A DNA stretch of 64,000 nt. Origin: Miscanthus floridulus. Lineage: Eukaryota; Streptophyta; Magnoliopsida; Poales; Poaceae. Numbering within the stretch: position 1 is the first letter of the stretch; the number at the start of each line of letters is the position of its first letter. Below, piece by piece: positions 5,957 to 61,172 of this stretch. The DNA is taken from NCBI RefSeq assembly GCF_019320115.1, contig NC_089587.1, forward strand, positions 84,430,384 through 84,494,383, in the 5' to 3' direction. Position numbers and translations under genes: made by a program. The notes under the pieces were generated by a model, which was not told where the DNA came from, searched no databases, and saw nothing but the letters and a program-made list of their open reading frames with translations.

Positions 5957-6352
5957 CCTGGCCCACCAGCCACGGTAGCCTTAGGTCACCTTTGGTACAA
6001 TTTGGGATACCGTGGGTTTGAGCTGAGCCGCACACTCAGGGGGGGGCAGCCGAATGCTAGGTAGCTCAGGCCAAGCTTGCCCACAGTCAATCCCTGTCCC
6101 GCCGCACACCTTACTTCTTCCAGTGTGCGCGCCATACATCTCAAATTTCCAGCCCAAATTGAGCTACTCTGCTTGGCGGTCAAAACGACTTATCTGGCCA
6201 GCTAAGTGAAAGGCGGCGTTCACTCTCGAACAAGGTCCAACAACGGTACAATCCTTAACCGACACAGACGGGATCAACATAGCCAAACCTAACACCATTT
6301 GCATATAAAATCCCGCCCGGTCTCCATTTATATGACACCACATGGTTATTTT
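5957..6352 (-). repeat. Old chromovirus LTR, piece 2
   Basis: Short continuation of the old LTR between the two insertions. It ends with ATTTT (6348-6352), the target duplication of the young Gypsy element. Confidence 0.7.
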
Positions 6353-7029
6353 TGTAACACCCTGGTGTTATTCTTGCCTAATTGCACTTGCATTTCATAT
6401 TCATGAGCATCATTCATCAATTCATGAGCATATGTCACTTGAAACATGGGAAACATGACTTTGAAACAAATGTATCATTTCAAGTGTTTTCATCATTTCA
6501 GTACCTTTAGTGCTTGATTATTGTATGACCAATGTGTGATATAGCTAAATCTATTGTTAAACATCTTAGCTATGCTTAGAAAGTCATTAGGAACAATGTT
6601 CAAGTTGATCATTTTGCCCAATTAAGATTTCAAATCATGGTTTGACTTGTTTTGACCCTAGGACTTTTTGGTTTGACTGTTTAAAAAGTACCACTTGGAA
6701 TGTTTGCATGTCAGAGCAACCTAAAACAAAGTTGTAGCAAATTACATAAGGAACAAAAGTTATTTTGTGACCAAGTCATGAAAATGTGCACAACATGCTC
6801 AAAATGGTCCCACAAGTCAGAATTTGGGTTGATTTCAACACTTAGAAATTTCTAAGTGTAAGTTTCAGTTTTCAGTTTCTTGAACCCGACTTTGACATGA
6901 TTTTACTCTCTGTCCTTTGCGAATTAGGTCTTGATCATTTAAGATGAATTACAGATGGTACTTAGAGCTACAACTCTTGTGTAGATGGTATGAGCTAATA
7001 CTTCACGGTTTAGTAGAAAGAACGTTGTC

Positions 7030-7880
7030 AAATGGCGTCGTCAGGCTCTGATCGCGGGTCTGATGATCGTCTTCGTCAGGCCGAGTGGCCGACCGCCGTC
7101 AGGCCCAGTGCGCCAAGTGGAGTCCGTACGCCGTCGCAGCCCCCGCAGGTCAGACCGTCGCTGCCACGACATCGCCACGCGCCCCGCAGCTGGCCTATTT
7201 GGTTCGCCCGCGCTCCTTCGCATCGTCAGTCCCCTCTGAGCCGAGCTCGCGCTTCCGCCATTGCCGCAGGGAGAGTCGCCGCTGCTCAGCTCGCTCGCCT
7301 CCGTGTCGTTGCCGCCTCCAGTTAGCGCTCAGCTCCGTCTTCACCTCCCCTAGCTACTCCATCTCACCGTCGAGCCGGATAACCCAAGGTAGTGGCCTAA
7401 TTGAGTTCCCGCCGCCACCGCAACTCGCCGGAGTTGGAGCTCACCGTGGCTAGCACGGCACAGCTTCTCTCTGCCTTCCCTACCTCTTGTTTTGTCTTCT
7501 CCGTCGCGCGCTATTGCTCGAGTGATGGTGTCACCGTCCTCGCCTGGCTCCGTCTGGCCGGAACGCGGCCCGCGCACCGCCGTGCGCCATGGCCGAGCCG
7601 CCGCGCTCCGTGGCTGGAGTGCTTAGGGGTCAGTAGGGAGCAAGGTTAGGGTACCAATCGACGCGGTTCTTCACGTAGGTCACGTTGGTGCCGTCGGTTT
7701 CGCTGGGGAGATCACCGTCGGCGAGCTCGATCATCGCCGCGCCGACGTGTGCCGTCTCCCCTGTTTTGTGTCATTAACACGGGGGTCCCGCGTGTCAGCC
7801 GCCGAGCCGAAGAGAGCCAGGCTTGGGCTGCGTCGTGTCGTGGGCCGTCGGGTCCCTTCGGGCCGGCCCAGCAACACTTA
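7030..7880 (+). other. GC-rich island inside the LTR
   Basis: About 850 bases of CpG-rich sequence with many overlapping open frames on both strands, flanked by AT-rich DNA. The same island is in the 3' LTR (about 17767-18615), and a GC-rich stretch sits at the equivalent place in the old LTR (about 23100-23880, minus). The overlapping frames share no conserved protein, so I read the island as regulatory or untranslated rather than coding. Confidence 0.45.
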
Positions 7881-8731
7881 AGCGAATTGTTTTCCATTTA
7901 TTATTTGTTATTTGAAATCAAGAATGGTTTGAAAAATGTTTGGATGATCAAACTTGTTCCAAATTTGTTGAAACAAAATTTGCTAGGTTCCTTATCACCA
8001 GATCTACTTGGGAAAAATTATGTATGTCATTTTTGAGATACTTTTCTGTAGAACTTTATTTAATCATGAATATTGCTGATAACTTGAAAAATATGTAGAA
8101 AAATATATAGGCTTCAGAAAAATATGATTTCAAGTTTGTTAATCTTCTTGTGTCATGTACTCCTTAGGAAAAATATATTTCATGCATGTGCCTGTGGAAA
8201 AATTTTGAGGTGTAGTTCAAGCTCCTTTTATAACTGATTTTTGTTATTTTTGCTAGAGAGCAAACTTTGTATAAAACATGCATGTGGTAATTTTTGTACA
8301 GTCACTATATGCTATTAAGAACTTAGGAAAAATACTAATTCTGTTGTTTGACACTTTTCATAGTACAAAGTAATTTCATGCTCATTTTTATGCTATAGCT
8401 TGTCATTTTTGTGTAGGATGGTTTACTTATCCAAATGCCATGAAATTTTTATGGTAGTCTGTTTAGGGTAGTAGTATGCTACTGCAATTTTCTCAGATTT
8501 TTAGGAGCATCAGAAACATAGGTTGCTATTCAAACCTATTATTAACTAGGGTTTAAGCCAGTGTCGCTTTAAGTGTGATTAAGAAAGTCGTAAAGCTTTG
8601 GTGTATCTTTGAAGCATTTCATAAGATAGGTTAACTTAACATATTAGTAGTAGAAGAGAATGCAGTAGATGACATGTGCTTGTAGTATAGTTCTTCGATG
8701 ATGTTGACTACCTTGCATTTCAACATATCCA

Positions 8732-8977
8732 TTGCATTCATCTCCTTCGATGCACCGTTTGCATAATCACTTACACGCATTGCATCATACAGGATCGCAA
8801 ACCGAGAACCCAGTCGTCATACCCGAGGAGCCCGAGGAGCAGCTCGAGGTGCAGCAGCAGGAAGTGCCAGAAGCCGACGAGGAGGACGTTGAGGAACTTC
8901 CGGAGTGCCCCGATCACCGTCCGAGCTCCTTCGAGAGAGGCAAGCCCCGGAGCATTTTTCTCCCGGTTTGCAATTAA
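8732..8977 (+). CDS. Small acidic ORF within the LTR (81 codons)
   Basis: Frame beginning MHSSPSMHRLHNHLH, then an acidic Glu/Gln-rich stretch (EEPEEQLEVQQQEVPEADEED) and a C-terminal block ELPECPDHRPSSFERGKPRSIF. The copy at 19466-19711 is identical. The diverged old LTR keeps a related block on the minus strand near 21404-21470 (ELPEC, H.PASF, KGKPRSI), so the reading frame has been kept between two distant LTRs. An acceptor-like TACAG stands just before GATCGCAAACC at about 8792. No known domain. It could be an exon of a spliced leader ORF or a relic of gag; function unknown. Confidence 0.35.
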   Translation: MHSSPSMHRLHNHLHALHHTGSQTENPVVIPEEPEEQLEVQQQEVPEADEEDVEELPECPDHRPSSFERGKPRSIFLPVCN

Positions 8978-9880
8978 TTAATTAAATGCTTTACTTTAAT
9001 TGATGCATTACGTTCAGGAGTTGTTTGCAACCGTTGCTGCATTATACCTTGTTTACCTTTGTTATACTATATCCTTGTTACCCTGGTATCCGCAGTCGAG
9101 TCAATGCTTAGCTGGCTTAGACCGGTAGAAGTCGGGTGATTTCCTGTCACCTGCGAGCTATAGGTGGTTACCTGGATCTGCTTGGATGACTATGAAGTCA
9201 TAGTATAACTAAGTGTTAAATGAAGTTGAGACCGGACGGAGACTTGCAGAGTTTTGAACTGTAGTGTTTCCGTCTGTGTCGATTAAGGACCGACCGTTGT
9301 TGGGCCTCGAGTCATGTTGAACGCATGCCTTACATTTAGCTGGCCGGATAAAGTACCTTCCGACCGCGAAGCTGGGAGATTTTTCGGGCCGAGTAGATTG
9401 CCCGCAACGCACTGTACCGGAGCAGGTGTGGTAGGACACGGGGGCGGGATGATAAGACCAAAGTGCAGTCGGTCGGCCCCCGGGTACATGTGGTTCCTGG
9501 CAAACTCGAGATTCCTGGAAAGTTGACTCGGTGATCAATATCTCACTTTAGCGGGTGAGTGAGGTTTGTGTAAGGAATAAATCACCAGCTGGTTAGGAAT
9601 CGATTCGAATCGCCATCGCTCCTGGATAGTGAGCACTTGACTTGAGTTACTTCATCGTAGTAAATGCTATGGAACACTTGGACAGTTATAGTGTAATATG
9701 ACAGTATGGAAGTTGTTTAATGATCATTGGTTATCATTCTCTGCTTAATCACATGTTTACTCTAGCATAGGTGCAAACCTAGTTGACAGGTTAATAATAA
9801 TTAACTTGGCAATAATGCTTTTAGACAGGTTCTTGAATTGCTAAAAATGCTTCTTTTTGCAAATGAGTCAGCTACCCTAC

Positions 9881-9887
9881 TATAAAG
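9881..9887 (+). promoter_or_regulatory. Candidate LTR TATA box
   Basis: TATAAAG in the context CCTACTATAAAGCCC, about 530 bases before the LTR end; the same site recurs in the 3' LTR near 20613. The best TATA-like site in the 3' half of the LTR. No start-site data, so a candidate only. Confidence 0.3.
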
Positions 9888-10415
9888 CCCTTCATAATCC
9901 TTGGTGTCATTATTTTCGGTTATGTCGGGTAAGTCTGGCTGAGTACATTCTCGTACTCAGGGTTTTATTCCCACTTGATTGCAGATGGGCAGATGTACTA
10001 TGGCTACTGTATCAACTGCCTGTATCCTGCGATGGGTGATGCTTAGGACCATGGGCATGGTCATTCCTTACGTCTCATCTGATGCTTTTGTTGGAGATGA
10101 TCATTCGCTGGCACTATATTTGAACTCCGTGTGAGTGTGTGTGGTTTTAAGCAAATGACTTCCGCTACTTTTTATTCGAACTTGTTTTGTAATAACTATG
10201 TTTAAACTCTGATGTATCTGTTATGCAAACTTTTATGTAATATGTGATTGGTGACCGCTAAACTTAGTACGATCATGGCTGGGACATGAGTTGGTTTGAA
10301 ATCCTTCGTGATTTCACGGACTACCGGGTTATACGGGCTTAAGTTTGCTAAAGCGTCTGCTCTGGCGGATGATTTTCTTACTTAATTTCGTATAATTGGT
10401 CGGTTCTGTCACAGC

Positions 10416-10427
10416 TGGTATCAGAGC
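10416..10427 (+). other. Primer-binding site (initiator Met tRNA)
   Basis: TGGTATCAGAGC, two bases after the 5' LTR end, complementary to the 3' end of plant initiator tRNA-Met. It primes minus-strand DNA synthesis. Confidence 0.92.
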
Positions 10428-11201
10428 ATGGTTTAGCGTGTTACTGTTCACAAGTGTATTTAAAACAAAAAGGCATTGGAAAACGTGATTTTAAAACTAT
10501 AAAGTGTGCCAGTGATCATATCCGTTATGCCCAGTTAAGGACTTTAGGTGGCTTAATTAAGTACTGACTGGGGTTCTTGCATCATATTTCTCTTTCGTCG
10601 CTCATACGGCGTGCTATTGTATGAGTGCCACTTGTTTGAGTGGTAATGAATGGATCAATTGCCTCTACGCCTCGGTAAGTGTGAGTTGTGAGAGCATGAT
10701 CGGATACACCGCCGATCTAGGGTGAATGCTTATATGATACTGGAGTAATTACATGTTCTACGCATGTTTTACCAAGGTATCTCATGTGAGGGTCTTCCGT
10801 CTGTGGAGGCGATGCCATCATTAGGATGATGATTCGGGTAGTTACTACCGTTGTACACGTATCTGGGGATTCGTGTAGAGCGTGTAGATAAAATTTTACT
10901 GCTTTTATGCATTCATTGGGAATTGGGCTGAAATGAATCTTCTGCAGGTACATAACAACGCTATCGTGTAGAACGTATTAGCTACGTAAATGAGAGATCG
11001 TTGTTATGCCACCGAATTCGTCGTTAGAAATTATTTATTTCCTAAGTTTGTGAGAACGTACGACCCGTACATACATCATGTACTTGTGCATCTCATTCAT
11101 CTCATGCATACCTCCCCTTATAAATTGATTATCTCATTTTGATAAAAGTTGTATCACCTAAAATATGTTTCCCCGAGGTAATAAGAGAACTTTTGCTACA
11201 G
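10428..11201 (+). other. Leader of the young Gypsy element with splice signals
   Basis: Non-coding region between PBS and the first internal ORF. A consensus donor GTAAGT stands at 10675-10680 after CTCG. Acceptor-like sequences TTTTGCTACAG at 11191-11201 and AATATGCAG at 12551-12559 end exactly at the ATG of the H3-mimic ORF and of gag. This suggests that both proteins may be made from alternatively spliced RNAs (inference; no transcript data). Confidence 0.4.
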
Positions 11202-12191
11202 ATGGCCCGCACGAAGCAGACCGCCCGTAAGTCCACCGGAGGAAGAGCACCTCGACGTCCGTTGGCCCTGAGGGAGCACCGCACCACGGACACCTTCTTG
11301 AGCGAGTTTGGCATGCCGACTTTGCTTTGGAGAGTGCTCCATGATGTGGGGTACCCAGAGGGTCAGGAGCCGGTGTACTCTTGGAATGAGAGCCAGTTAG
11401 CAGATGATGGACTTGCAGTGGTGGAGATCACGGTTCCTGCTCTCGGTGATGCTCCAGATTGGGATGGTTGGCATTTGGAGTTTGAGGGTCGCACTCCAGC
11501 TGAGGGTGCAGAGGGAGCAGCCTTCCGTGTCATCAGGGACATTATGAGCAGATTTCCCAGTGAGCTTGCAGCAGCTTTAGCTGGTACTTTTCCTAGGGAT
11601 GATCCCCGCGATGCCATTTGGGTTCAGCCTGAAGGAAGCGCATTGGTCAGAGGTCCAGCTGAGGGACAGGCTAGCGACAACCAGGCAATGAGTGCTATGT
11701 TCGCCGCCATCAGAGCGTATGAGGGTCTTGAGAGTACCTACTGGACTTTGACTGGCTTGCGTAGTGAGGATAAGCTCAAAGGGAAGAAGCAGAAGAAGAG
11801 ACAGGCTCGAGCTATAGCTAGCTTGCAGGAGCAGTTGGCTGATATGAATCTACAGCGAGATCAGGCGGTTGAAAGAGGTGATAGAGCTATGCAGCGAGTG
11901 CATACGTTGACTCAAGCCAACAACAATGCAGATCGCATGATTGGACAGTTGGTTCAGGAAAGGAATGAAGCCTGGAACGCAAGAAACCTTCTGTTGCAGA
12001 GAGTCGATGAGCTAGAGGAATACAACGGCTACTTGCACGAGGAGTTTCACGCGCTCTACAATGGGGTTGGCCCATATGCTCCACCGAACGCCGCTGGCAT
12101 GGACATCGACGACGACAACCAGGATGAGCCTGTAGTTTCACCTGGAGGCGATGGTGACGTCTCCGATCCCGACGATGGCCCCGAGGAGTAG
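11202..12191 (+). CDS. Retrotransposon ORF with histone H3 N-terminal tail, coiled coil and acidic tail
   Basis: A 329-residue ORF between PBS and gag, same strand. Residues 2-14 are ARTKQTARKSTGG, the exact H3 tail including K4, R8, K9, S10; then R-APR-RPLA, where H3 has K14, K18 and Q19, so 18 of the first 21 tail positions match. The early codons are GC-ending as in plant histone genes. Residues ~22-190 are a region I do not recognise; the ALREHR just after the tail resembles the start of the H3 alphaN helix (ALREIR), which may be chance. Residues ~190-200 are Lys/Arg-rich (KGKKQKKRQAR), ~200-285 a strong coiled coil, ~300-329 very acidic (DIDDD, DPDDGPEE). The ATG is the one that exposes the H3 tail after Met removal and follows a CTACAG acceptor-like site; an in-frame ATG 21 codons upstream exists. 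Not a histone: no histone fold. Role unknown; H3 mimicry of chromatin readers or writers is inferred. Confidence 0.85.
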   Translation: MARTKQTARKSTGGRAPRRPLALREHRTTDTFLSEFGMPTLLWRVLHDVGYPEGQEPVYSWNESQLADDGLAVVEITVPALGDAPDWDGWHLEFEGRTPAEGAEGAAFRVIRDIMSRFPSELAAALAGTFPRDDPRDAIWVQPEGSALVRGPAEGQASDNQAMSAMFAAIRAYEGLESTYWTLTGLRSEDKLKGKKQKKRQARAIASLQEQLADMNLQRDQAVERGDRAMQRVHTLTQANNNADRMIGQLVQERNEAWNARNLLLQRVDELEEYNGYLHEEFHALYNGVGPYAPPNAAGMDIDDDNQDEPVVSPGGDGDVSDPDDGPEE

Positions 12192-12559
12192 GCTAGTAGC
12201 TTTGCGCTAGTATCTAGGTCTTGTCGCGATGACCTTTCTTTTGTTGGCATGTAATCTATCGTATGTTGCTTCGAACGTATGAGAATTGGCATGTGTTTGG
12301 AACTTGATTTTCGAATGCGATATCTGAACGCATAAAAAGTCCTAGTGTATGTATACTGGCAATGTGATTGTATGGACGCGATGTTTGCCGTTTAAGTAAC
12401 TCGATTAAGTGCTGTTGTTTTAATTGGAATTGCGATTGTTGTGCCTCTGTTTTTATTGTATGAATTTATTCTCTCCAGTAAATTCAGTATGGCATAATTT
12501 TTCCCTCACTCGCAATTATTACAGCTTCACTCAATCATACTTGTTGCTGAAATATGCAG
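12192..12559 (+). other. Spacer between H3-mimic ORF and gag
   Basis: Non-coding AT-rich DNA ending in the acceptor-like AATATGCAG directly before the gag ATG. Nothing else seen. Confidence 0.5.
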
Positions 12560-15556
12560 ATGACAAACACTCGCCGAACCACGTATGAGGCCGCTGAGCC
12601 CGGTGCCAACGGTGCAGGGACCGGTGGTGGTGGTGGTGGTGGTGGAAACCACAGCAACAACAATGAACCTCCCCATGAACCGCATTTGCCACCTCCGCCC
12701 CCGTTTACCCCCGAAATGTTCCTCGCACAGCTACTCGGGAGTCAGCGCAACACAGAACAATCTCAGAAGAACATGGAGGATCTTCTCAGAACCATCGCCA
12801 ACAACGTTCAACGTGGTAACAATCAAGGTGGTGGCATGGGAGTGAACCAATATAGCAGCTTCAAAGATTTCATGGACACCAGGCCACCAGTCTTCAAGGA
12901 AGCAACAGAGCCACTTGATGCTGAGGAATGGATCAACACGATGGAAGATAAATTCCGTGTGTTGAGAATGACTGAGGTGCTAAAAACGGAGTATGCTGCA
13001 CTTCAATTGCAAGGACCGGCGGGAATGTGGTGGAAGCACCATCGCACCACCTTCCCTCCAAATGCTCAGATTTCTTGGAGAGAGTTTGCTGAGGCCTTCC
13101 GCGGAGTCTATATTCCACCCGGGCTGACAGAGATGAAGTTGGGAGAGTTTCTGGCATTGAACCAGGGTACCAAGACCGTGACGCAATACCTGCATGCTTT
13201 CAACAACTTATGTCGCTATGCTCCCGACATGGTTGACACAGATGCTAAGAGAATAGCCAGTTTTAAGAGGGGTCTCAATCCAAAAATGATGAAGCATGTT
13301 GGTACCAACAACCGCGTCAGATTCAACGATTTCATCAGTGACTGTCTGAAGCAGGAGAAGAATAACAACGCCAGCACCGCAGCCAAGACACGCAAGAGAG
13401 CCTTCGAAGGTGGGCCGTCTCAAGCTAGAGCACCTATGGGAGGTCGTCCTCCTTATCGCCCATCGGCACCTGGCGCTAGATTCAGGCCACCTCAGCCAAG
13501 AAGCCAGAATTTCCGTGGACCTCAAAAGCCGTACAAGATGGCAGTACAGCCCAACAAAGCAGCCGCAACTGCGGTACAAGGCAGTTCCAAGGGAGCTGTG
13601 GGATCTGCCGGGACAGTGAGAGGACCCTGCTATAACTGCGATCAACCCGGTCATTTCTCGAGGTTTTGTCCATACCCGCCCAAGAAGAAGCAGCAGACTT
13701 ATAATGCTAGAGTGCACAGTACAACAGTGGATGAAATTCCAGAGGGAGAGCCCGTCACTGCTGGTAAGTTTACTGTCAATGAAAACCCTGCAGTTGTTCT
13801 ATTTGATTCCGGATCATCGCATTCTTTTATGAGTCAAGCATTTGCACAGAAATATGAACAACTATGCACAGAATTGGGTTATGGTTACCGTATAAGTTCA
13901 GCAGGGGCTGATGTTTTGACCAACCGGATGGTTCGAGGGGCAACCCTTGAATTAGGTAGCAGAAAGTTCCGAGTGAACTTGATAGTTATGCCTGGGTTAG
14001 TCTTGGATGTCATTATAGGGATGAATTGGATGAAGGATTGGGGAGCAGTCATAGATACTGGAGGTCGAGTACTTACCCTTAAGGATCCCCTGGGTGAGGG
14101 TACTTTCCAAGTACCATTGCCTCGAAGAACAGACCTTATAAGTGTTACATGCGCTACGGCAGTCATTCCTATTCATCAGATTCCGGTAGTGTGTGAATTC
14201 CCGGACGTATTCCCGGATGAGCTACCTGGTCTTCCGCCAGATAGAGAGATTGAGTTTGGAATTGAGTTAGTCCCCGGAACAGCTCCGATTTCAAGGAGGC
14301 CCTATCGGATGCCTCCCGACGAGTTAGCTGAGCTAAAGAAGCAATTAGAAGATTTGTCGAAAAAGGGGTTTATTCGGCCAAGCAAGTCTGAATGGGGATG
14401 TCCAGCTTTGTTTGTGAAGAAAAAGAAAGAGGGCACGTTGAGAATGTGCGTAGATTATAGGCCACTCAATGCTGTGACCGTCAAGAATAAATATCCCTTG
14501 CCACATATTGATGTTCTGTTTGACCAATTATCCAAGGCCAAGGTGTTCTCAAAAATAGATTTGAGATCCGGTTATCATCAGATCAAGATTAGGCCACAGG
14601 ATATACCAAAAACTGCATTTTCCACCAGATACGGGTTGTATGAGTATCTTGTCATGTCTTTTGGCTTGACAAATGCTCCCGCATACTTTATGTTTTTGAT
14701 GAATACAGTTTTCATGCCAGAATTGGATAAGTTTGTGGTAGTGTTCATCGATGACATTCTGGTGTACTCCGAGAATGAGAAAGATCACGAAGAGCATCTG
14801 AGAACTGTCTTGACCAGACTTAGAGATCATCAATTGTATGCTAAGTTTAGCAAATGCGAATTCTGGTTGAAGGAAGTTCCTTTCCTTGGTCACATTCTGT
14901 CAGAGAATGGAGTTTCAGTCGATCCAAGTAAGGTGCAAGAAGTTATGAATTGGAAAGCACCGACCACAGTTCCTGAGATTAGAAGTTTCTTAGGACTAGC
15001 GGGTTATTACCGTCGCTTTATACCAGATTTCTCAAAGATCGCCAAACCGATGACGAGTCTCCTACAGAAGGATCACAAGTTTGTGTGGACAGAGGAGTGT
15101 GAAGCAGCTTTCCACACTTTGCGGAAACTGTTGACCACTGCTCCTGTTCTAGCACAACCGGATATAGAGAAACCATTTGATGTGTTTTGCGACGCATCAA
15201 AGACTGGATTGGGTTGTGTTCTTATGCAAGAAAGGAGAGTCATAGCTTATGCATCACGTCAATTGAGAAAGCACGAGGTCAACTATCCAACACATGATCT
15301 TGAACTTGCTGCAGTTGTGCACGCCCTAAAAATTTGGAGACATTACCTACTTGGTAATGTGTGCAATATTTTCACGGATCACAAGAGTCTTAAGTATATC
15401 TTTACCCAACCAGAGCTAAACATGAGACAACGTAGATGGTTGGAATTGATCAAAGATTACAACTTGAATGTGCAATATCATCCTAGGCAAAGCCAATGTA
15501 GTGGCAGATGCTTTGAGCAGAAAGTCACATTACTTGACTGTGCAGCCCTTACTTGA
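12560..15556 (+). CDS. gag-pol: Gypsy gag-protease-RT-RNase H polyprotein (5' part of gag-pol)
   Basis: Starts [15 protein letters not shown] at 12560 (an ATG two codons upstream is also possible). Residues ~1-90: Gly/Pro-rich leader with a poly-Gly run; ~100-270 retrotransposon gag capsid domain (ending [12 protein letters not shown]); ~357-370 zinc knuckle [14 protein letters not shown] (CX2CX4HX4C) for RNA packaging; ~416 aspartic protease motif FDSGSSHSF; ~560-780 reverse transcriptase with catalytic FIDDILVYS at ~730; ~870-985 RNase H ([10 protein letters not shown]). The frame breaks near 15485, in the RNase H-integrase linker, where one extra base shifts reading; the true continuation is the next ORF. 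Gag and pol are one frame here, without a gag-pol stop. Confidence 0.92.
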
Positions 15557-16742
15557 AGATGGATTCGATCTAATGCATCCTGCTGTGTTAAATAGTATTC
15601 AGATTAGTTGCTCTTTGGAGAGTAAGATAATAGAAGGTCAGAAAACTGACAAGGGGATATTCCACATCAAAGAGAAAATAAAAGAAAAGCCGTCTCAACA
15701 CTTTAAAGTGGATGAACAGGGTGTGTTGTGGTTTGACAACCGTCTTGTGGTTCCCAAGGATCGAGAGCTTAGGAATAAACTCATGGATGAAGCTCACCTG
15801 TCTAAGCTATCTATCCATCCCGGAAGTAGTAAGATGTATCAAGAACTAAGATCTCGTTATTGGTGGACCAAAATGAAGAAAGAAATTACAGCATATGTTG
15901 TCAGATGTGACACATGTTGTCGAGTGAAAGCCATTCACATGAAACCTGCCGGTATGTTGCAACCCTTATCAGTCCCTAGTTGGAAGTGGGACGATATCAG
16001 TATGGATTTTATCACGGGTTTGCCCACTACTCAAAAAGGACATGATTCGATTTGGGTAATTGTGGACCGTCTTACCAAGACCGCTCATTTCTTGCCTGTC
16101 AAAACAGATTATCGACCACCTCAATATGCCGAGAAGTATATCGCAGAAATTGTGAGGTTGCATGGTATACCCAAGACCATAATATCTGATAGAGGCTCAC
16201 AGTTCACGGCTCATTTTTGGGAACATTTACACAAAGGCTTAGGAACTAGTTTAATTCGCAGTACCGCTTATCATCCTCAGACAGATGGTCAGACTGAACG
16301 AGTAAATGCTGTTTTGGAGGATATGTTGAGAGCCTGTGTATTGTCTTCCAAGGGATCATGGGAGTCATGGTTACCGTTAGCTGAGTTTTCTTATAATAAT
16401 AGCTATCAAGAAAGCATCAAGATGGCCCCATTCGAAGCTTTATATGGCAGAAAATGTAGAACACCATTGAATTGGATCGAGCCTGGTGATAGAAGGTATT
16501 ATGGCATTGACTTTGTAGAAGAAGCCGAGAAGAAAGTTCATATTATTCAGCAGAATATGAAAGCTGCCCAATCACGTCAGAAAAGCTATGCAGACAAAAG
16601 AAGGAGACCCCTTGTGTTTGAAGTTGGTGATTATGTTTATCTGAAAGTCACACCAATGAAGAAGAAAAGGTTTGGAATCCGAAGAAAGCTTGCCGCAAGA
16701 TTCGTAGGACCATACAAGATCTTGGAACGAAGAGGCCGGTAG
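15468..16742 (+). CDS. pol: Gypsy integrase (second part of pol)
   Basis: Continuation of pol in the next frame after the single-base shift near 15485; the ATG at 15468 is not a biological start. It holds the HHCC zinc finger (HLSKLSIHP ... CDTCCRVK), then the integrase core with Asp in SMDFITG, Asp in SDRGSQFT and Glu in GQTERVN, the last two 35 residues apart (D,D35E), and a C-terminal DNA-binding region (VGDYVYLK ... GPYKILER). Integrase inserts the cDNA copy into host chromatin. Reading stops at 16740 after a one-base loss near 16735, compensated by a one-base gain near 16775, so about 40 bases are out of frame. Confidence 0.9.
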
Positions 16743-16775
16743 CCTACAAGTTAGAGTTACCTGAGACAATGAGTA

Positions 16776-17078
16776 CCAGTTTTCCCAGTTTTCCATGTAT
16801 CACACCTCAAGAAATGTTTGCGTGTTCCGGAGGAAAGAATAGAACCTCGAGGTATCCAACTCAAATCAGATTTGGTGTATCGTGAACAACCAGTCCGAGT
16901 GTTAGACACTAAGGAACGTGCTACTCGGAATAGTGTGGTAAAAACATACAAGATACAGTGGGATCATCATGATGAGGGAGATGCAACTTGGGAAACAGGA
17001 GAGTATCTACAAAAAGCTTATGAAGAATTTTATAACAAATGGTTCGTAACCCAAATCTCGGGACGAGATTTTTTATAA
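16776..17078 (+). CDS. pol: Integrase C-terminal chromodomain
   Basis: In the same frame as the integrase ORF once the compensating indels are passed. Shows the linker VSHLKKCLRVPEE and a chromodomain-like segment PVRVLDTKER ... YKIQWDHHDEGDATWE ... AYEEFYNKW, then stop at 17076-17078. This is the chromodomain of chromoviral integrases, which in related elements directs integration to heterochromatin by reading histone marks. The aromatic cage is partial: W of IQW and W of ATWE are seen, the first aromatic is not obvious, as in the Tekay-type group. Confidence 0.85.
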   Translation, partial: PVFPVFHVSHLKKCLRVPEERIEPRGIQLKSDLVYREQPVRVLDTKERATRNSVVKTYKIQWDHHDEGDATWETGEYLQKAYEEFYNKWFVTQISGRDFL

Positions 17079-17088
17079 GGAGGGAGGG
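17077..17088 (+). other. Polypurine tract
   Basis: AAGGAGGGAGGG one base before the 3' LTR start at 17090. Primes plus-strand synthesis. Confidence 0.88.
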
Positions 17089-17089
17089 C

Positions 17090-20000
17090 TGTAACACCCT
17101 GGTGTTATTCTTGCCTAATTGCACTTGCATTTCATATTCATGAGCATCATTCATCAATTCATGAGCATATGTCACTTGAAACATGGGAAACATGACTTTG
17201 AAACAAATGTATCATTTCAAGTGTTTTCATCATTTCAGTACCTTTAGTGCTTGATTATTGTATGACCAATGTGTGATATAGCTAAATCTATTGTTAAACA
17301 TCTTAGCTATGCTTAGAAAGTCATTAGGAACAATGTTCAAGTTGATCATTTTGCCCAATTAAGATTTCAAATCATGGTTTGACTTGTTTTGACCCTAGGA
17401 CTTTTTGGTTTGACTGTTTAAAAAGTACCACTTGGAATGTTTGCATGTCAGAGCAACCTAAAACAAAGTTGTAGCAAATTACATAAGGAACAAAAGTTAT
17501 TTTGTGACCAAGTCATGAAAATGTGCACAACATGCTCAAAATGGTCCCACAAGTCAGAATTTGGGTTGATTTCAACACTTAGAAATTTCTAAGTGTAAGT
17601 TTCAGTTTTCAGTTTCTTGAACCCGACTTTGACATGATTTTACTCTCTGTCCTTTGCGAATTAGGTCTTGATCATTTAAGATGAATTACAGATGGTACTT
17701 AGAGCTACAACTCTTGTGTAGATGGTATGAGCTAATACTTCACGGTTTAGTAGAAAGAACGTTGTCAAATGGCGTCGTCAGGCTCTGATCACGGGTCTGA
17801 TGATCGTCTTCGTCAGGCCGAGTGGCCGACCGCCGTCAGGCCCAGTGCGCCAAGTGGAGTCCGTACGCCGTCGCAGCCCCCGCAGGTCAGACCGTCGCTG
17901 CCACGACATCGCCACGCGCCCCGCAGCTGGCCTATTTGGTTCGCCCGCGCTCCTTCGCATCGTCAGTCCCCTCCGAGCCGAGCTCGCGCTTCCGCCATTG
18001 CCACAGGGAGAGTCGCCGCTGCTCAGCTCGCTCGCCTCCGTGTCGTTGCCGCCTCCAGTTAGCGCTCAGCTCCGTCTTCACCTCCCCTAGCTACTCCATC
18101 TCACCGTCGAGCCGGATAACCCAAGGTAGTGGCCTAATTGAGTTCCCGCCGCCACCGCAACTCGCCGGAGTTGGAGCTCACCGTGGCTAGCACGGCACAG
18201 CTTCTCTCTGCCTTCCCTACCTCTTGTTTTGTCTTCTCCGTCGCGCGCTATTGCTCGAGTGATGGTGTCACCGTCCTCGCCGGCTCCGTCTGGCCGGAAC
18301 GCGGCCGCGCACCGCCGTGCGCCATGGCCGAGCCGCCGCGCTCCGTGGCTGGAGTGCTTAGGGGTCAGTAGGGAGCAAGGTTAGGGTACCAATCGACGTG
18401 GTTCTTCACGTAGGTCACGTTGGTGCCGTCGGTTTCGCCGGGGAGATCACCGTCGGCGAGCTCGATCATCGCCGCGCCGACGTGTGCCGTCTCCCCTGTT
18501 TTGTGTCATTGACACGGGGGTCCCGCGTGTCAGCCGCCGAGCCGAAGAGAGCCAGGCTTGGGCTGCGTCGTGTCGTGGGCCGTCGGGTCCCTTCGGGCCG
18601 GCCCAGCAACACTTAAGCGAATTGTTTTCCATTTATTATTTGTTATTTGAAATCAAGAATGGTTTGAAAAATGTTTGGATGATCAAACTTGTTCCAAATT
18701 TGTTGAAACAAAATTTGCTAGGTTCCTTATCACCAGATCTACTTGGGAAAAATTATGTATGTCATTTTTGAGATACTTTTCTGTAGAACTTTATTTAATC
18801 ATGAATATTGCTGATAACTTGAAAAATATGTAGAAAAATATATAGGCTTCAGAAAAATATGATTTCAAGTTTGTTAATCTTCTTGTGTCATGTACTCCTT
18901 AGGAAAAATATATTTCATGCATGTCCTGTGGAAAAATTTTGAGGTGTAGTTCAAGCTCCTTTTATAACTGATTTTTGTTATTTTTGCTAGAGAGCAAACT
19001 TTGTATAAAACATGCATGTGGTAATTTTTGTACAGTCACTATATGCTATTAAGAACTTAGGAAAAATACTAATTCTGTTGTTTGACACTTTTCATAGTAC
19101 AAAGTAATTTCATGCTCATTTTTATGCTATAGCTTGTCATTTTTGTGTAGGATGGTTTACTTATCCAAATGCCATGAAATTTTTATGGTAGTCTGTTTAG
19201 GGTAGTAGTATGCTACTGCAATTTTCTTAGATTTTTAGGAGCATCAGAAACATAGGTTGCTATTCAAACCTATTATTAACTAGGGTTTAAGCCAGTGTCG
19301 CTTTAAGTGTGATTAAGAAAGTCGTAAAGCTTTGGTGTATCTTTGAAGCATTTCATAAGATAGGTTAACTTAACATATTAGTAGTAGAAGAGAATGCAGT
19401 AGATGACATGTGCTTGTAGTATAGTTCTTCGATGATGTTGACTACCTTGCATTTCAACATATCCATTGCATTCATCTCCTTCGATGCACCGTTTGCATAA
19501 TCACTTACACGCATTGCATCATACAGGATCGCAAACCGAGAACCCAGTCGTCATACCCGAGGAGCCCGAGGAGCAGCTCGAGGTGCAGCAGCAGGAAGTG
19601 CCAGAAGCCGACGAGGAGGACGTTGAGGAACTTCCGGAGTGCCCCGATCACCGTCCGAGCTCCTTCGAGAGAGGCAAGCCCCGGAGCATTTTTCTCCCGG
19701 TTTGCAATTAATTAATTAAATGCTTTACTTTAATTGATGCATTACGTTCAGGAGTTGTTTGCAACCGTTGCTGCATTATACCTTGTTTACCTTTGTTATA
19801 CTATATCCTTGTTACCCTGGTATCCGCAGTCGAGTCAATGCTTAGCTGGCTTAGACCGGTAGAAGTCGGGTGATTTCCTGTCACCTGCAAGCTATAGGTG
19901 GTTACCTGGATCTGCTTGGATGACTATGAAGTCATAGTATAACTAAGTGTTAAATGAAGTTGAGACCGGACGGAGACTTGCAGAGTTTTGAACTGTAGTG

Positions 20001-21145
20001 TTTCCGTCTGTGTCGATTAAGGACCGACCGTTGTTGGGCCTCGAGTCATGTTGAACGCATGCCTTACATTTAGCTGGCCGGATAAAGTACCTTCCGACCG
20101 CGAAGCTGGGAGATTTTTCGAGCTGAGTAGATTGCCCGCAACGCACTGTACCGGAGCAGGTGTGGTAGGACACGGGGGCGGGATGATAAGACCAAAGTGC
20201 AGTCGGTCGGCCCCCGGGTACATGTGGTTCCTGGCAAACTCGAGATTCCTGGAAAGTTGACTCGGTGATCAATATCTCACTTTAGCGGGTGAGTGAGGTT
20301 TGTGTAAGGAATAAATCACCAGCTGGTTAGGAATCGATTCGAATCGCCATCGCTCCTGGATAGTGAGCACTTGACTTGAGTTACTTCATCGTAGTAAATG
20401 CTATGGAACACTTGGACAGTTATAGTGTATATGACAGTATGGAAGTTGTTTAATGATCATTGGTTATCATTCTCTGCTTAATCACATGTTTACTCTAGCA
20501 TAGGTGCAAACCTAGTTGACAGGTTAATAATAATTAACTTGGCAATAATGCTTTTAGACAGGTTCTTGAATTGCTAAAAATGCTTCTTTTTGCAAATGAG
20601 TCAGCTACCCTACTATAAAGCCCTTCATAATCCTTGGTGTCATTATTTTCGGTTATGTCGGGTAAGTCTGGCTGAGTACATTCTCGTACTCAGGGTTTTA
20701 TTCCCACTTGATGCAGATGGGCAGATGTACTATGGCTACTGTATCAACTGCCTGTATCCTGCGATGGGTGATGCTTAGGACCATGGGCATGGTCATTCCT
20801 TACGTCTCATCTGATGCTTTTGTTGGAGATGATCATTCGCTGGCACTATATTTGAACTCCGTGTGAGTGTGTGTGGTTTTAAGCAAATGACTTCCGCTAC
20901 TTTTTATTCGAACTTGTTTTGTAATAACTATGTTTAAACTCTGATGTATCTGTTATGCAAACTTTTATGTAATATGTGATTGGTGACCGCTAAACTTAGT
21001 ACGATCATGGCTGGGACATGAGTTGGTTTGAAATCCTTCGTGATTTCACGGACTACCGGGTTATACGGGCTTAAGTTTGCTAAAGCGTCTGCGCTGGCGG
21101 ATGATTTTCTTACTTAATTTCGTATAATTGGTCGGTTCTGTCACA
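17090..21145 (+). repeat. 3' LTR of the young Gypsy element
   Basis: 4056 bp, almost identical to the 5' LTR. One-base indels against the 5' LTR include those near 18280, 18305, 18924, 20430 and 20712. Holds the second copy of the small acidic ORF (19466-19711) and of the GC-rich island. Confidence 0.93.
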
Positions 21146-21541
21146 ATTTTCCACGATAGCAAATATAGCCAACCGTGACCAAGTATCCACCTATAGCTTG
21201 TAGGTGACAAGAAATCACCCGACTTCTACCGGTCTAAGCATGACTAAGCATATACTTCGATCATGGACCTAACAGAGGTAATAAGATATATTTCTAGACA
21301 AGGGAAAGATATATGCATCAACAGTTTCAAACAACTCCTATAACGTAATGCGTCAATCATAAAGGACTCAAGGATATTTTTAATAAATCATGGGAAGCTT
21401 AATATGCTCCGGGGCTTGCCTTTGAGAAAGCTAGCGGGAACATGCTCCAGACACTCCGGCAGCTCCTGGACCTGTTCTTCCCCTTCTGGACCCTCCTAGA
21501 CCTTCAGTGGAACCTCCTCTCCCACAGTCTCAAGCTCCAAC

Positions 21542-58463: not shown

Positions 58464-59876
58464 TCAACACATATTTGAGAAATCCAATATGTTCAACTCA
58501 TTCCTTAGCTTGCAAAACCTTTTCTCATCCAATGGCTTGGTGAATATATCGGTAAGTTGATCTTCGGTGCCTACACTCTCAATGCAAATGTCCCCTTTTT
58601 GTTGGTGATCTCTTATGAAATGGTGGCAGACATCAATATGCTTTGTTCTTGCATGTTGAACCGGATTGTTGGTCAACTTGATTGCACTCTCATTGTCACA
58701 TAGCAATGGCACTTTCTTGAACTTAATTCCAAAGTCACTTAAGGTGGCCTTCATCCAAAGTATTTGTGCACAACAACTACCGGCGGATATGTATTCAGCT
58801 TCAGTGGTTGATAATGCAATACTATTTTGCTTCTTTGATGACCATGAAACAAGTGATCTTCCCAACAATTGACATGTGCCTGAGGTGCTCTTCCTTTCAA
58901 CCTTGCATCCCGCATAATCCGAGTCAGAGTAACCAACTAGCTCAAACTTTGCTCCTTTGGGATACCACACACCAATATTTGGTGTATGCTTCAAGTACCT
59001 CAATATTCTCTTTTTAGCCTTCAAATGACTTTCTCTTGATGAGGCTTGAAATCTTGCGCACATGCATACACTAAATATGACATCCAGCCTTGATGCAGTC
59101 ACATAGAGTAGGCTTCCAATCATAGACCGATACAATTTTTGATCCACCATATTTCCACTTGCATCACTATCCAAGTTGCCATTTGTTCCCATTGGTGTGC
59201 TAATGGCTTTGCTATCACTCATGCCAAACTTCTTGATCATGTCCTTGATATACTTGTCTTGACTCATAAATATACCATTCTTTAATTGCTTGATTTGGAG
59301 ACCAAGGAAGTAACTTAACTCTCCAATCATGGACATCTCAAACTCATTAGCCATCATCTTTCCAAACTCATCACAAAAGTCTTGATTGGTTGATCCAAAT
59401 ATGATGTCATCAACATAGATTTGCAATATAAATAAATCTTTTCCAATCTTCTTGATGAAAAGAGTGGTGTCAATCTTGCCCATCATGAACCCTTTAGAGA
59501 GTAGGAAGTCCCTCGATCTCTCATACCATGCTCTAGGTGCTTGCTTCAAGCCATACAATGCCTTCTTCAACCTGTACACATGGTTGAGCTTCTTGTCATC
59601 TTCAAAACTGGGAGGTTGCTCAACATATACTTTTTCACTGATGTAACCATTGAGAAATGCACTCTTGACATCCATTTGATAGAGCTTGATGTTGTGGGCA
59701 CAAGCATAGGCTAGCAAGATTCTAATTGCTTCCAATCTAGCAACCGGGGCATATGTTTCTCCAAAGTCAAGACCTTCAACTTGTGTATAGCCTTGTGCTA
59801 CCAATCTTGCTTTGTTCCTTACTACTATCCTATCTTGATCTTGCTTATTTCTAAAGACCCATTTGGTTCCATTCAC
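58464..59876 (-). CDS. pol: Copia reverse transcriptase-RNase H (intact stretch)
   Basis: 470 open codons. RT from [14 protein letters not shown] through [46 protein letters not shown] to [11 protein letters not shown] (catalytic Asp pair at about residue 153) and YFLGLQIKQ; then connection ([17 protein letters not shown]) and RNase H with [28 protein letters not shown] and [14 protein letters not shown], ending [14 protein letters not shown]. All core motifs are present. It copies element RNA into DNA. The first Met is internal to the polyprotein; the frame was originally continuous with integrase. Confidence 0.93.
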
Positions 59877-59906
59877 ATTGTGTCCCTTTGGTCTCTCTAC
59901 TAATTC

Positions 59907-60332
59907 TCATACTTGATTTCTTATGAAGTTATTCAATTCTTCATACATAGCATTCACCCAATCAACATCCTTCAATGCTTCATCTATCTTCTTTGATTCA
60001 ATGGATGACACAAATGAGAAATGTTCACAAAATGAAGCCAATCTTGATCTTGTTTGTACACCTCTAGAAATATCACCAATTATAGTATCCAATGGATGAT
60101 CCCTTGCAATATTTGTTGGTTGGAGCATTGGAACTTGATTGCTTGCACTTGCTTGATCATTGGGTTGAGAAGATGTACTAGCCACTTGATCTTGTTCATT
60201 ATCATGAGAGCCACTTGTACTAACTTGATTTGTATCATCTTGCACATTTGAGTTAAAGAGCACTTGTACTTGATCATCTTCATCATCATTCACTTGCCTA
60301 GGCCTCAATTCACCAACATCCATGTTCTTCAT
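59907..60332 (-). pseudogene. pol: Integrase-RT linker of the copia element
   Basis: Acidic Gln/Asp/Ser-rich linker (DDEDDQVQVLFNSN ... GSHDNEQDQVAST), then HPLDTIIGDISRGVQTRSR and the conserved EALKDVDWVNAMYEELNNF that leads into RT. A stop at about 59905 separates it from the RT frame. Confidence 0.8.
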
Positions 60333-60383
60333 GGCATTTGAAAGTTGAATGCCTCTAACATCTTCTAAGTTCTCATTCTCTAC

Positions 60384-61172
60384 TTATGAACCCTTGGTTT
60401 TATCAAATTCAACATCATGAACTTCCTCAAGAGTACCACTATCCAAATTCCAAACTCTATATGCTTTGCTTGTAGTGGAATAACCAAGTAGGAATCCTTC
60501 ATCACATTTCTTGTCAAACTTGCCCAGTCTAGTGCCTTTCTTCAAGATGTAGCATTTGCAACCAAAGATCCAAAAATATACAATGTTGGGCTTTCTACCA
60601 TTCAAGAGCTCATATGGTGTCTTCTCTTTCAATGGGTGATAATAGAGGCGGTTGCTATAATAGCAAGCCGTGTTGATAGCTTTGGCCCAAAAAGATTGAC
60701 TCACATTGTACTCACTAAGCATAGACCTTGCCATATCAATAAGTGTTCTATTCTTCCTCTCAACAAGACCATTTGATTGTGGAGTGTACTTGGCCGAGAA
60801 TTGATGTCTAATTCTAAATTCATCACACAACTCATCAATTCTAGTGTTCTTGAACTCACTACCATTGTCACTTCTAACTCTCTTGATGGTTGTTTCAAAC
60901 TCATTGTGAATGCCCTTGACAAATGATTTGAATGTCGCAAACACATCACTTTTGTCCACTAGAAAGAATATCCATGTGTATCTAGTATAATCATCCACTA
61001 TCACAAAGCCATATTTATTTCCACCAATGCTAGTGTATTGTGTTGGCCCAAACAAGTCCATATGCAATAACTCAAATGCTTTACTAGTGCTCATCATGCT
61101 TTTCTTAGGATGGGTGTTTCCAACTTGTTTGCCAGCTTGACAAGAGCTACAAAGCTTATCCTTTTCAAACAT
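60384..61172 (-). CDS. pol: Copia integrase core (open stretch)
   Basis: 262 codons: end of the zinc finger (CSSCQAGKQVG), first catalytic Asp in LHMDLFGPTQY, VIVDDYTRYTW, second Asp in RVRSDNGSEF, Glu in NGLVERKNRTLIDMA, then the C-terminal PYELLNGRKPNIVYFWIFGCKCY and SKAYRVWN blocks. D,D,E triad intact. A stop at 60384 ends the frame where the linker follows. Confidence 0.92.
   Translation of the reverse strand: MFEKDKLCSSCQAGKQVGNTHPKKSMMSTSKAFELLHMDLFGPTQYTSIGGNKYGFVIVDDYTRYTWIFFLVDKSDVFATFKSFVKGIHNEFETTIKRVRSDNGSEFKNTRIDELCDEFRIRHQFSAKYTPQSNGLVERKNRTLIDMARSMLSEYNVSQSFWAKAINTACYYSNRLYYHPLKEKTPYELLNGRKPNIVYFWIFGCKCYILKKGTRLGKFDKKCDEGFLLGYSTTSKAYRVWNLDSGTLEEVHDVEFDKTKGS

Follow-up and report, generated by a model that had tools for sequence, protein, structure and literature searches.

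A histone H3-like tail on the ORF0 protein of a Retrosat2-like grass retrotransposon and its possible role in engaging host chromatin

The 64,000-nucleotide (nt) stretch of the Miscanthus floridulus genome analyzed here (contig NC_089587.1, positions 84,430,384 to 84,494,383; hereafter, the window) carries a retrotransposon with long terminal repeats (LTRs), a primer-binding site (PBS) and the order gag, protease, reverse transcriptase (RT), RNase H and integrase that is characteristic of Ty3/gypsy elements. When the window was compared with itself by blastn, the two LTRs were 99.6% identical (11 mismatches), and by this measure the element is young. Its PBS, TGGTATCAGAGC, is of what we take to be the initiator-Met-tRNA type. 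Between PBS and gag lies an additional open reading frame (ORF), here called ORF0, whose predicted protein begins with the N-terminal tail of histone H3. With this extra ORF and with both LTRs exceeding approximately 3 kb, the element was designated Retrosat2-like and, provisionally, a Tekay-like chromovirus, names based on its layout and on PMC6317226 and PMC3485330. Coordinates of all features are listed in Table 1.

The predicted ORF0 protein starts with MARTKQTARKSTGGRAPRRPLA (longer stretch, MARTKQTARKSTGGRAPRRPLALREH). After the initiator Met, 13 of 13 residues were equal to H3 1-13 and 18 of 21 to H3 1-21, with K14R, K18R and Q19P as the only departures. Both the exact start and the divergence that follows it had been reported in an earlier, sequence-only reading of this DNA (hereafter, the original prediction) and were confirmed; the changes at K14 and K18 proved to be common to ORF0 families. 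With PDB sequences as the target, a phmmer search of ORF0 gave hits to 133 distinct entries (E-value limit 10); the best 60 of these were all H3 or H3-like chains (best E-value 3e-5, query residues 1-23). Chance resemblance to H3 was rejected, as the probability of a 13-residue exact N-terminal match is negligible. ORF0 thus carries a longer-than-chance stretch of H3 tail on a non-histone protein, as is expected of an H3 mimic. Identity as a core histone H3 was likewise rejected: the structure model showed other folds, and the window protein (P0001) gave no match to the histone-fold profile PF00125 up to an E-value of 1.

Behind the tail, the body of ORF0 models as a fold resembling a double-stranded RNA-binding domain (dsRBD), followed by a long coiled-coil helix and an acidic tail. 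The basic patch, coiled coil and acidic tail agree with the original prediction, in which residues between the H3 tail and the basic patch were described as a unique region of approximately 170 residues; that region is not featureless, since residues 36-122 are modelled as an alpha-beta-beta-beta-alpha fold. The best VIA-align rows for the modelled body were dsRBDs of plant DRB/DCL proteins, TRBP, Staufen and Loquacious, while Foldseek taken alone gave a weak match (best row DCL4, E-value 0.073). Pfam scans of P0001, P0064, P0051, P0023 and six pieces of set A8 brought up no dsRBD profile, nor was one present among the 25 listed of 43 Pfam families hit by the 32 members of set A4; these scans returned weak hits only, chiefly to coiled-coil-rich families. 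A profile of the body searched against PDB sequences yielded six hits (best E-value 0.54), with no dsRBD among them. RNA-binding dsRBDs usually carry lysines in helix 2. In the window protein, this helix reads AEGAEGAA and has none.

Table 1. Features of the retrotransposon and its ORF0 in the window (position 1 is the first nucleotide of the window).
Feature	Position	Strand	Basis or remark
LTR retrotransposon, whole element	6353-21145	+	LTRs and flanking duplication
Target-site duplication ATTTT, left copy	6348..6352		Sequence; right partner 21146-21150
5' LTR, 4061 nt, TGTAACACCC...TGTCACA	6353..10413	+	blastn self-match to 17090-21145
PBS TGGTATCAGAGC	10416..10427	+	Sequence
Leader, PBS to ORF0	10428..11201	+	
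Splice-acceptor-like stretch CTTTTGCTACAG	11190..11201	+	Directly 5' of ORF0 ATG
ORF0, 329 amino acids and stop, ATG to TAG	11202-12191	+	ORF list, translation
Met and H3-like tail, ORF0 residues 1-22	11202..11267	+	Residues 2-14 equal H3 1-13
dsRBD-like domain, residues 36-122, alpha-beta-beta-beta-alpha	11307..11567	+	Structure model
Long helix/coiled coil, residues 161-288	11682..12065	+	Structure model
Basic patch KGKKQKKRQAR, residues 193-203	11778..11810	+	Sequence
Acidic C-terminal tail, residues 291-329	12072..12188	+	Sequence; low model confidence
gag-protease-RT-RNase H ORF	12554..15556	+	Pfam Retrotrans_gag, RVP_2, RVT_1, RT_RNaseH
Integrase part, other frame	15468..16742	+	Pfam Integrase_H2C2 above cut-off, rve below cut-off
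Chromodomain-like piece, end of pol	16854..17075	+	PF00385, E-value 1.2e-4, 22.4 bits, below cut-off of 25.1
3' LTR, 4056 nt	17090..21145	+	blastn self-match
Target-site duplication ATTTT, right copy	21146..21150		Sequence

Despite the high LTR identity, pol of the window copy is frame-shifted and interrupted (15468-17080). Just outside the element, positions 21179-21239 show a 61-nt inverted match (93%) to positions 19849-19909 in the LTR and perhaps represent a reversed fragment of a related LTR. Farther away, on the minus strand (58464-61172), two ORFs were judged by eye to resemble pieces of a Ty1/copia polyprotein.

Copies of ORF0 were sought in the M. floridulus genome itself (2.68 Gb). 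The first-look search returned 12,802 candidates, of which 122 were scored and most were not. All 122 scored copies started at residue 1 (121 spanned residues 1-329 and one 1-327). The sequences of 110 of them were read (30, plus 80 of the other 92; 12 were left out); these copies, hereafter the young family, were ranked by protein score and are therefore biased toward intact copies. Met followed by ARTKQTARKSTGG was exact in 93 of the 110, and the whole ORF0 frame was open in 85.

An older ORF0 family was found by searching the same genome with a relative, P0016 (42% identical), which gave 12,809 candidates, 123 of them scored and 20 read. One or more internal stops were recorded for every one of the 123 scored copies. 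A recognisable H3 tail was present in 20/20 of those read, most commonly in a form like MARTKQTARKSTGGRAPRHQLAPRTR, and was exact over H3 1-13 in six despite the decay. Lysine was retained at K4 and at K9 in all 20. At the three later lysine positions of H3, the residue was R (17 copies), K (2) or S (1) at position 14, H (19) or Q (1) at position 18, and R (17), C (2) or H (1) at position 23, with no lysine left at the latter two; owing to shared descent, these counts are not independent.

Divergence between the window ORF0 and the 20 older copies was unevenly distributed along the protein. In the tail, mean nonsynonymous divergence (pN) was 0.106 and synonymous divergence (pS) 0.550, a ratio of 0.19. 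The corresponding values were 0.418 and 0.848 for residues 23-35 and 0.318-0.390 and 0.685-0.839 for four later regions, so that pN/pS outside the tail was 0.43-0.56. In a codon-by-codon comparison of the tail that covered five older copies, L126 and L129 each differed from the window by five synonymous changes in H3 codons 1-13 and L121 by six, all three without any amino-acid change; L113 and L118 had two and one amino-acid changes, respectively. Low tail pN/pS and synonymous-only changes indicate that the tail predates the split of the young and older families and was kept as protein. The original prediction had offered selection or very recent capture as explanations for the exact tail. 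These data favour selection, and very recent capture from H3 was rejected because the tail occurs on anciently diverged families, shows much synonymous change and shares derived substitutions.

The leader provides context for expression of ORF0. Between the end of the 5' LTR and the ORF0 start there are 21 ATGs, and the motif TTGCTACAG stands directly before the ATG; of the 110 young copies, 104 match it exactly and six have one mismatch. In the older family it was exact in 15/20 copies, had one mismatch in 4/20 and was absent from one copy (L112), in which the ATG is also gone. Given these 21 upstream ATGs, the probable source of the protein is a spliced RNA whose leader ends at the CAG-ATG border. 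The gag ORF also has CAG followed by ATG, at 12557-12562, with a second in-frame ATG just upstream (12554-12562), which represents a possible second splice acceptor. Use of alternative 3' splice sites could thus generate separate messages for ORF0 and gag-pol.

A conserved acceptor-like stretch before the ATG, together with upstream ATGs that hint at splicing, raises the question whether the 5' end of ORF0 is preserved at the nucleotide level, as a splice acceptor, exonic enhancer or start context. We regard this explanation as extremely improbable: the variation of L121, L126 and L129 within H3 codons 1-13 is synonymous and leaves the amino acids unchanged, and pure nucleotide constraint was rejected for the tail on this ground.

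More distant relatives were recovered with residues 1-42 only, in a protein search against targets of approximately 181-576 amino acids (32 hits up to an E-value of 10; 41 candidates; 19 of 30 new hits read). P0051, from the grass Aristida adscensionis, P0064 and P0059 all have, besides an H3 tail, a stretch of helix and an acidic end. Tail identity was 20-22 of 22 residues among these three and 19-21 of 22 with the window or L121; the tails of L121, P0064 and P0059 were 21-22/22 identical. Bodies in these comparisons were 20-31% identical in forced global alignments. In pairs that included P0016, tail identity was 15-18/22. Many metagenome relatives (P0002, P0019, P0023 and others) have a predicted start, MPTLLW, that lies downstream of the tail position.

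Substitutions in the tail followed a common pattern. In six of six ORF0 types compared, H3 positions 14 and 23 were occupied by R and position 18 by R or H; P0039 departs from this (C at 14, S at 23). Neither Arg nor His is acetylated by lysine acetyltransferases. K9 was present in all tailed ORF0 relatives compared, and K4 was lost in P0016 and P0039 (T3R, K4R, Q5L; in P0016 also R8H). At the level of predicted protein, the tail has thus lost the acetylatable K14, K18 and K23 and kept K9 and, mostly, K4.

This pattern bears on the idea that the tail serves at the N terminus as a basic signal for localisation or stability, derived from H3 by happenstance, in which the mimicry is unused. The tail is indeed basic, and P0016 and P0039 tolerate T3R, K4R and Q5L while remaining basic. 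Such a signal would not, however, preserve the uncharged T6, A7, S10, T11, G12 and G13, nor would it account for K9 being lysine in 20/20 older copies while K14, K18 and K23 changed to R, H or other residues. A mere basic signal therefore appears distinctly unlikely.

H3 tails also occur outside ORF0. The non-histone proteins P0046, P0049, P0054, P0056, P0063, P0068, P0072, P0073 and P0075, of fungal and other origin, begin with an H3 tail, and two of them, P0046 and P0073, are F-box proteins. Three further proteins from marine or other sources (P0047, P0057 and P0062) follow H3 past position 30 and continue with unrelated, partly acidic sequence. The H3-tailed fungal and other proteins, whose bodies look unrelated, are probably independent acquisitions, and their existence suggests that H3 tails have been acquired repeatedly. 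Multiple acquisition being feasible, as P0046, P0056, P0063, P0073, P0075 and others illustrate, the ORF0 tail could in principle be kept H3-like by repeated capture from, or conversion by, host H3 genes, without selection on the protein. This scenario is very improbable in view of the non-H3 states K14R, K18R/H and K23R shared by 6/6 ORF0 types compared, of the synonymous divergence of the tail (pS 0.55, vs. 0.69-0.85 elsewhere) and of the occurrence of TTGCTACAG before the ATG in both young and older families.

Taken together, the exact tail, its constraint between families, the retention of K9 and mostly K4, and the contacts of a plant reader protein favour engagement of H3K9 readers or writers. 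That protein, ADCP1, is a plant H3K9me2 reader that contacts H3R2, H3K4 and K9me2 and leaves unmodified H3 unbound (PMC6318295). From this anatomy we infer that the tail probably engages host chromatin machinery; the more specific reading, in which ORF0 is an H3-tail mimic directed at readers or writers of H3K9 and probably works against silencing, is put forward tentatively, with a likelihood slightly short of even. The bait, tether or silencing escape suggested by the original prediction are likewise possible functions read from anatomy.

A mechanism along these lines can be outlined. ORF0 would be an accessory protein with a core of dsRBD-like domain, coiled coil and acidic tail, to which approximately the first 22 residues of H3 are joined N-terminally. 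The initiator Met is usually removed from proteins that start with Met-Ala, and its cleavage from ORF0 would expose A1-R2-T3-K4...K9. K9 might then be methylated like that of H3, leaving a tail that would be methylatable at K9 and not acetylatable at positions 14, 18 or 23. Multimerisation through the coiled coil could turn ORF0 into a multivalent H3-tail decoy or bait by which plant readers or writers of H3K9me2, of the ADCP1/AGDP1 and SUVH/CMT types, are kept occupied, and the dsRBD-like domain may contact a Dicer/DRB-type partner or RNA. The outcome would be an element that is less silenced, for which the protein VANC offers a precedent of anti-silencing encoded by a transposable element (abstract of PMC5735166). 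A still more specific version, in which a largely non-acetylatable, multivalent A1-K4-K9 decoy and a DRB/DCL-like dsRBD fold allow one protein to intervene both in the reading of H3K9me2 and in the small-RNA branch of plant silencing, and in which grass Tekay-type elements carried this device long before the window insertion, we consider rather unlikely.

Two sets of observations qualify the reading of a selected, chromatin-directed tail. The first concerns variation within the young family. Across its 110 copies, pN/pS of the tail was 0.59 when every variant was counted and 0.43 when only those present in at least three copies were, vs. 0.24-0.50 and 0.11-0.40, respectively, in other regions of ORF0, so that no extra constraint on the tail was seen. 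The comparison of tail and remainder among copies proposed in the original prediction thus revealed constraint between families but none in addition within the young one. All three tail variants that change an amino acid and recur among young copies were CpG transitions, and CpG density was 8 per 66 nt in the tail vs. 2.9 in the rest of ORF0, from which recent tail polymorphism may be interpreted as decay of methylated copies. With no extra within-family constraint and with these transitions, recent polymorphism gives no support to selection on the tail.

The second set consists of ORF0 homologues that lack the tail, which the original prediction had named as evidence that would count against it. 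None was seen among the scored copies of the family itself; at the level of the superfamily they are frequent. An own-genome search with P0064 gave 10,925 candidates, 123 of them scored, including 122 body relatives (E-values 4e-9 to 4e-4, 21-30% identity), none of which aligned before query residue 21. When 20 of these 122 ORFs were read in three forward frames with approximately 250-350 nt of upstream sequence, a tail-like motif was found in 0/20, a result limited to the retrieved stretch, as a tail could lie on a separate exon farther upstream. The proteins begin with MAGAW, MAEE or MADE; three have an earlier in-frame Met, and several are shortened by stops. L139 and L140 carry CTTGCAG directly before the ATG, and most other tail-less ORFs have no CAG there. 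Profile comparison related the window-type body to tail-less ORFs together with P0064 and P0051 (probability 91%, E-value 1.1e-6), vs. 13% and 0.0021 for P0064 and P0051 and 10% and 0.003 for tail-less ORFs alone. Since ORF0 homologues occur whose retrieved stretch contains no tail, the tail is, on sequence evidence, a module that was added to, or lost from, ORF0; addition would be simpler than loss, provided that the tail-less forms are basal.

Within the same genome, L132-L152 constitute a numerous family of such tail-less ORF0-like ORFs (MAGAW..., MAEE...). One of them (L152:221-745) lies approximately 760 nt downstream of a PBS whose sequence is that found in the window (PBS at L152:7044), in a unit that repeats at approximately 7.58 kb and has short matches to the window LTR (80% over 99 nt). 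Inspection by eye revealed no pol-like ORF of at least 130 amino acids in this unit, which is possibly a non-autonomous element that retained ORF0.

The main rival to an H3-tail decoy is a heterochromatin tether. Host H3 readers, or the chromodomain of the element itself, would read the tail, and ORF0 would not oppose silencing but connect the pre-integration complex with heterochromatin. The element does contain a chromodomain-like piece, type II chromodomains have no cage residues and a partner described as unidentified (PMC6317226 and PMC3350952), and the modelled coiled coil would permit multivalent contact. However, the chromodomain match does not reach the cut-off of Pfam, Tekay-type chromodomains miss the first cage residue, related units carry ORF0s without a tail, and tethering would further assume the presence of ORF0 in particles. 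We therefore judge tethering to be an unlikely, though serious, alternative to the preferred reading of ORF0 as a mimic that engages H3K9 readers or writers.

As an extra ORF, ORF0 is already known. It has been described in Retrosat2, RIRE3 and RIRE8 and in the maize, sorghum and Brachypodium homologues ZMsat2, Sorsat2 and Brasat2, with its function given as unknown; the elements concerned have LTRs of at least approximately 3 kb and carry ORF0 ahead of gag-pol, and ORF0 was reported from grasses only and evolves faster than ORF1 (PMC3485330). Its origin was thought to lie in a frameshift or in capture of unrelated DNA, and metabolic enzymes were suggested (same source); the terms 'histone' and 'ARTKQ' have 0 occurrences in the main text of that paper. 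The window ORF0 resembles Retrosat2-type ORF0 in being an extra ORF before gag-pol in an element with long LTRs, a comparison by description. In searches of the open-access literature, none of the listed titles and abstract starts reported a retrotransposon protein with an H3 tail or mimic, and an H3-tailed, dsRBD-like ORF0 appears to be new. A selected H3 tail turns the unexplained grass ORF0 into a testable question, namely whether it is a histone mimic directed against, or working for, plant chromatin, and would help to explain how a family with 12,802 first-look matches came to spread. Reader studies would gain a naturally occurring H3 tail that has K4 and K9 but not K14, K18 and K23.

Similarities to other systems are partial. 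With the dsRBDs of plant DRB/DCL, TRBP, Staufen and Loquacious, the ORF0 model shares the alpha-beta-beta-beta-alpha fold, but there is no sequence match and helix 2 of ORF0 is devoid of lysines. The fungal H3-tailed proteins (the F-box proteins P0046 and P0073, as well as P0056 and P0075) are likewise not histones and begin with ARTKQTARKSTGG, with Q at position 9 in P0046, but their bodies look unrelated and their tails are probably independent. VANDAL transposons are of a different kind from LTR retrotransposons. VANC, encoded by Arabidopsis VANDAL, is similar in being an accessory protein of a plant transposable element that counters silencing, for ORF0 a proposed analogy only; it differs in having sequence-specific targets, and the abstract of PMC5735166 mentions no H3 tail. 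Viral histone mimics, such as influenza NS1 and others of ARKS type, are comparable in that a parasite protein other than a histone carries a short peptide resembling H3. These are short internal or C-terminal motifs, whereas the window ORF0 has H3 1-13 at its true N terminus and belongs to a retrotransposon; a role for this tail in chromatin would extend histone mimicry, known from viruses, to abundant plant DNA.
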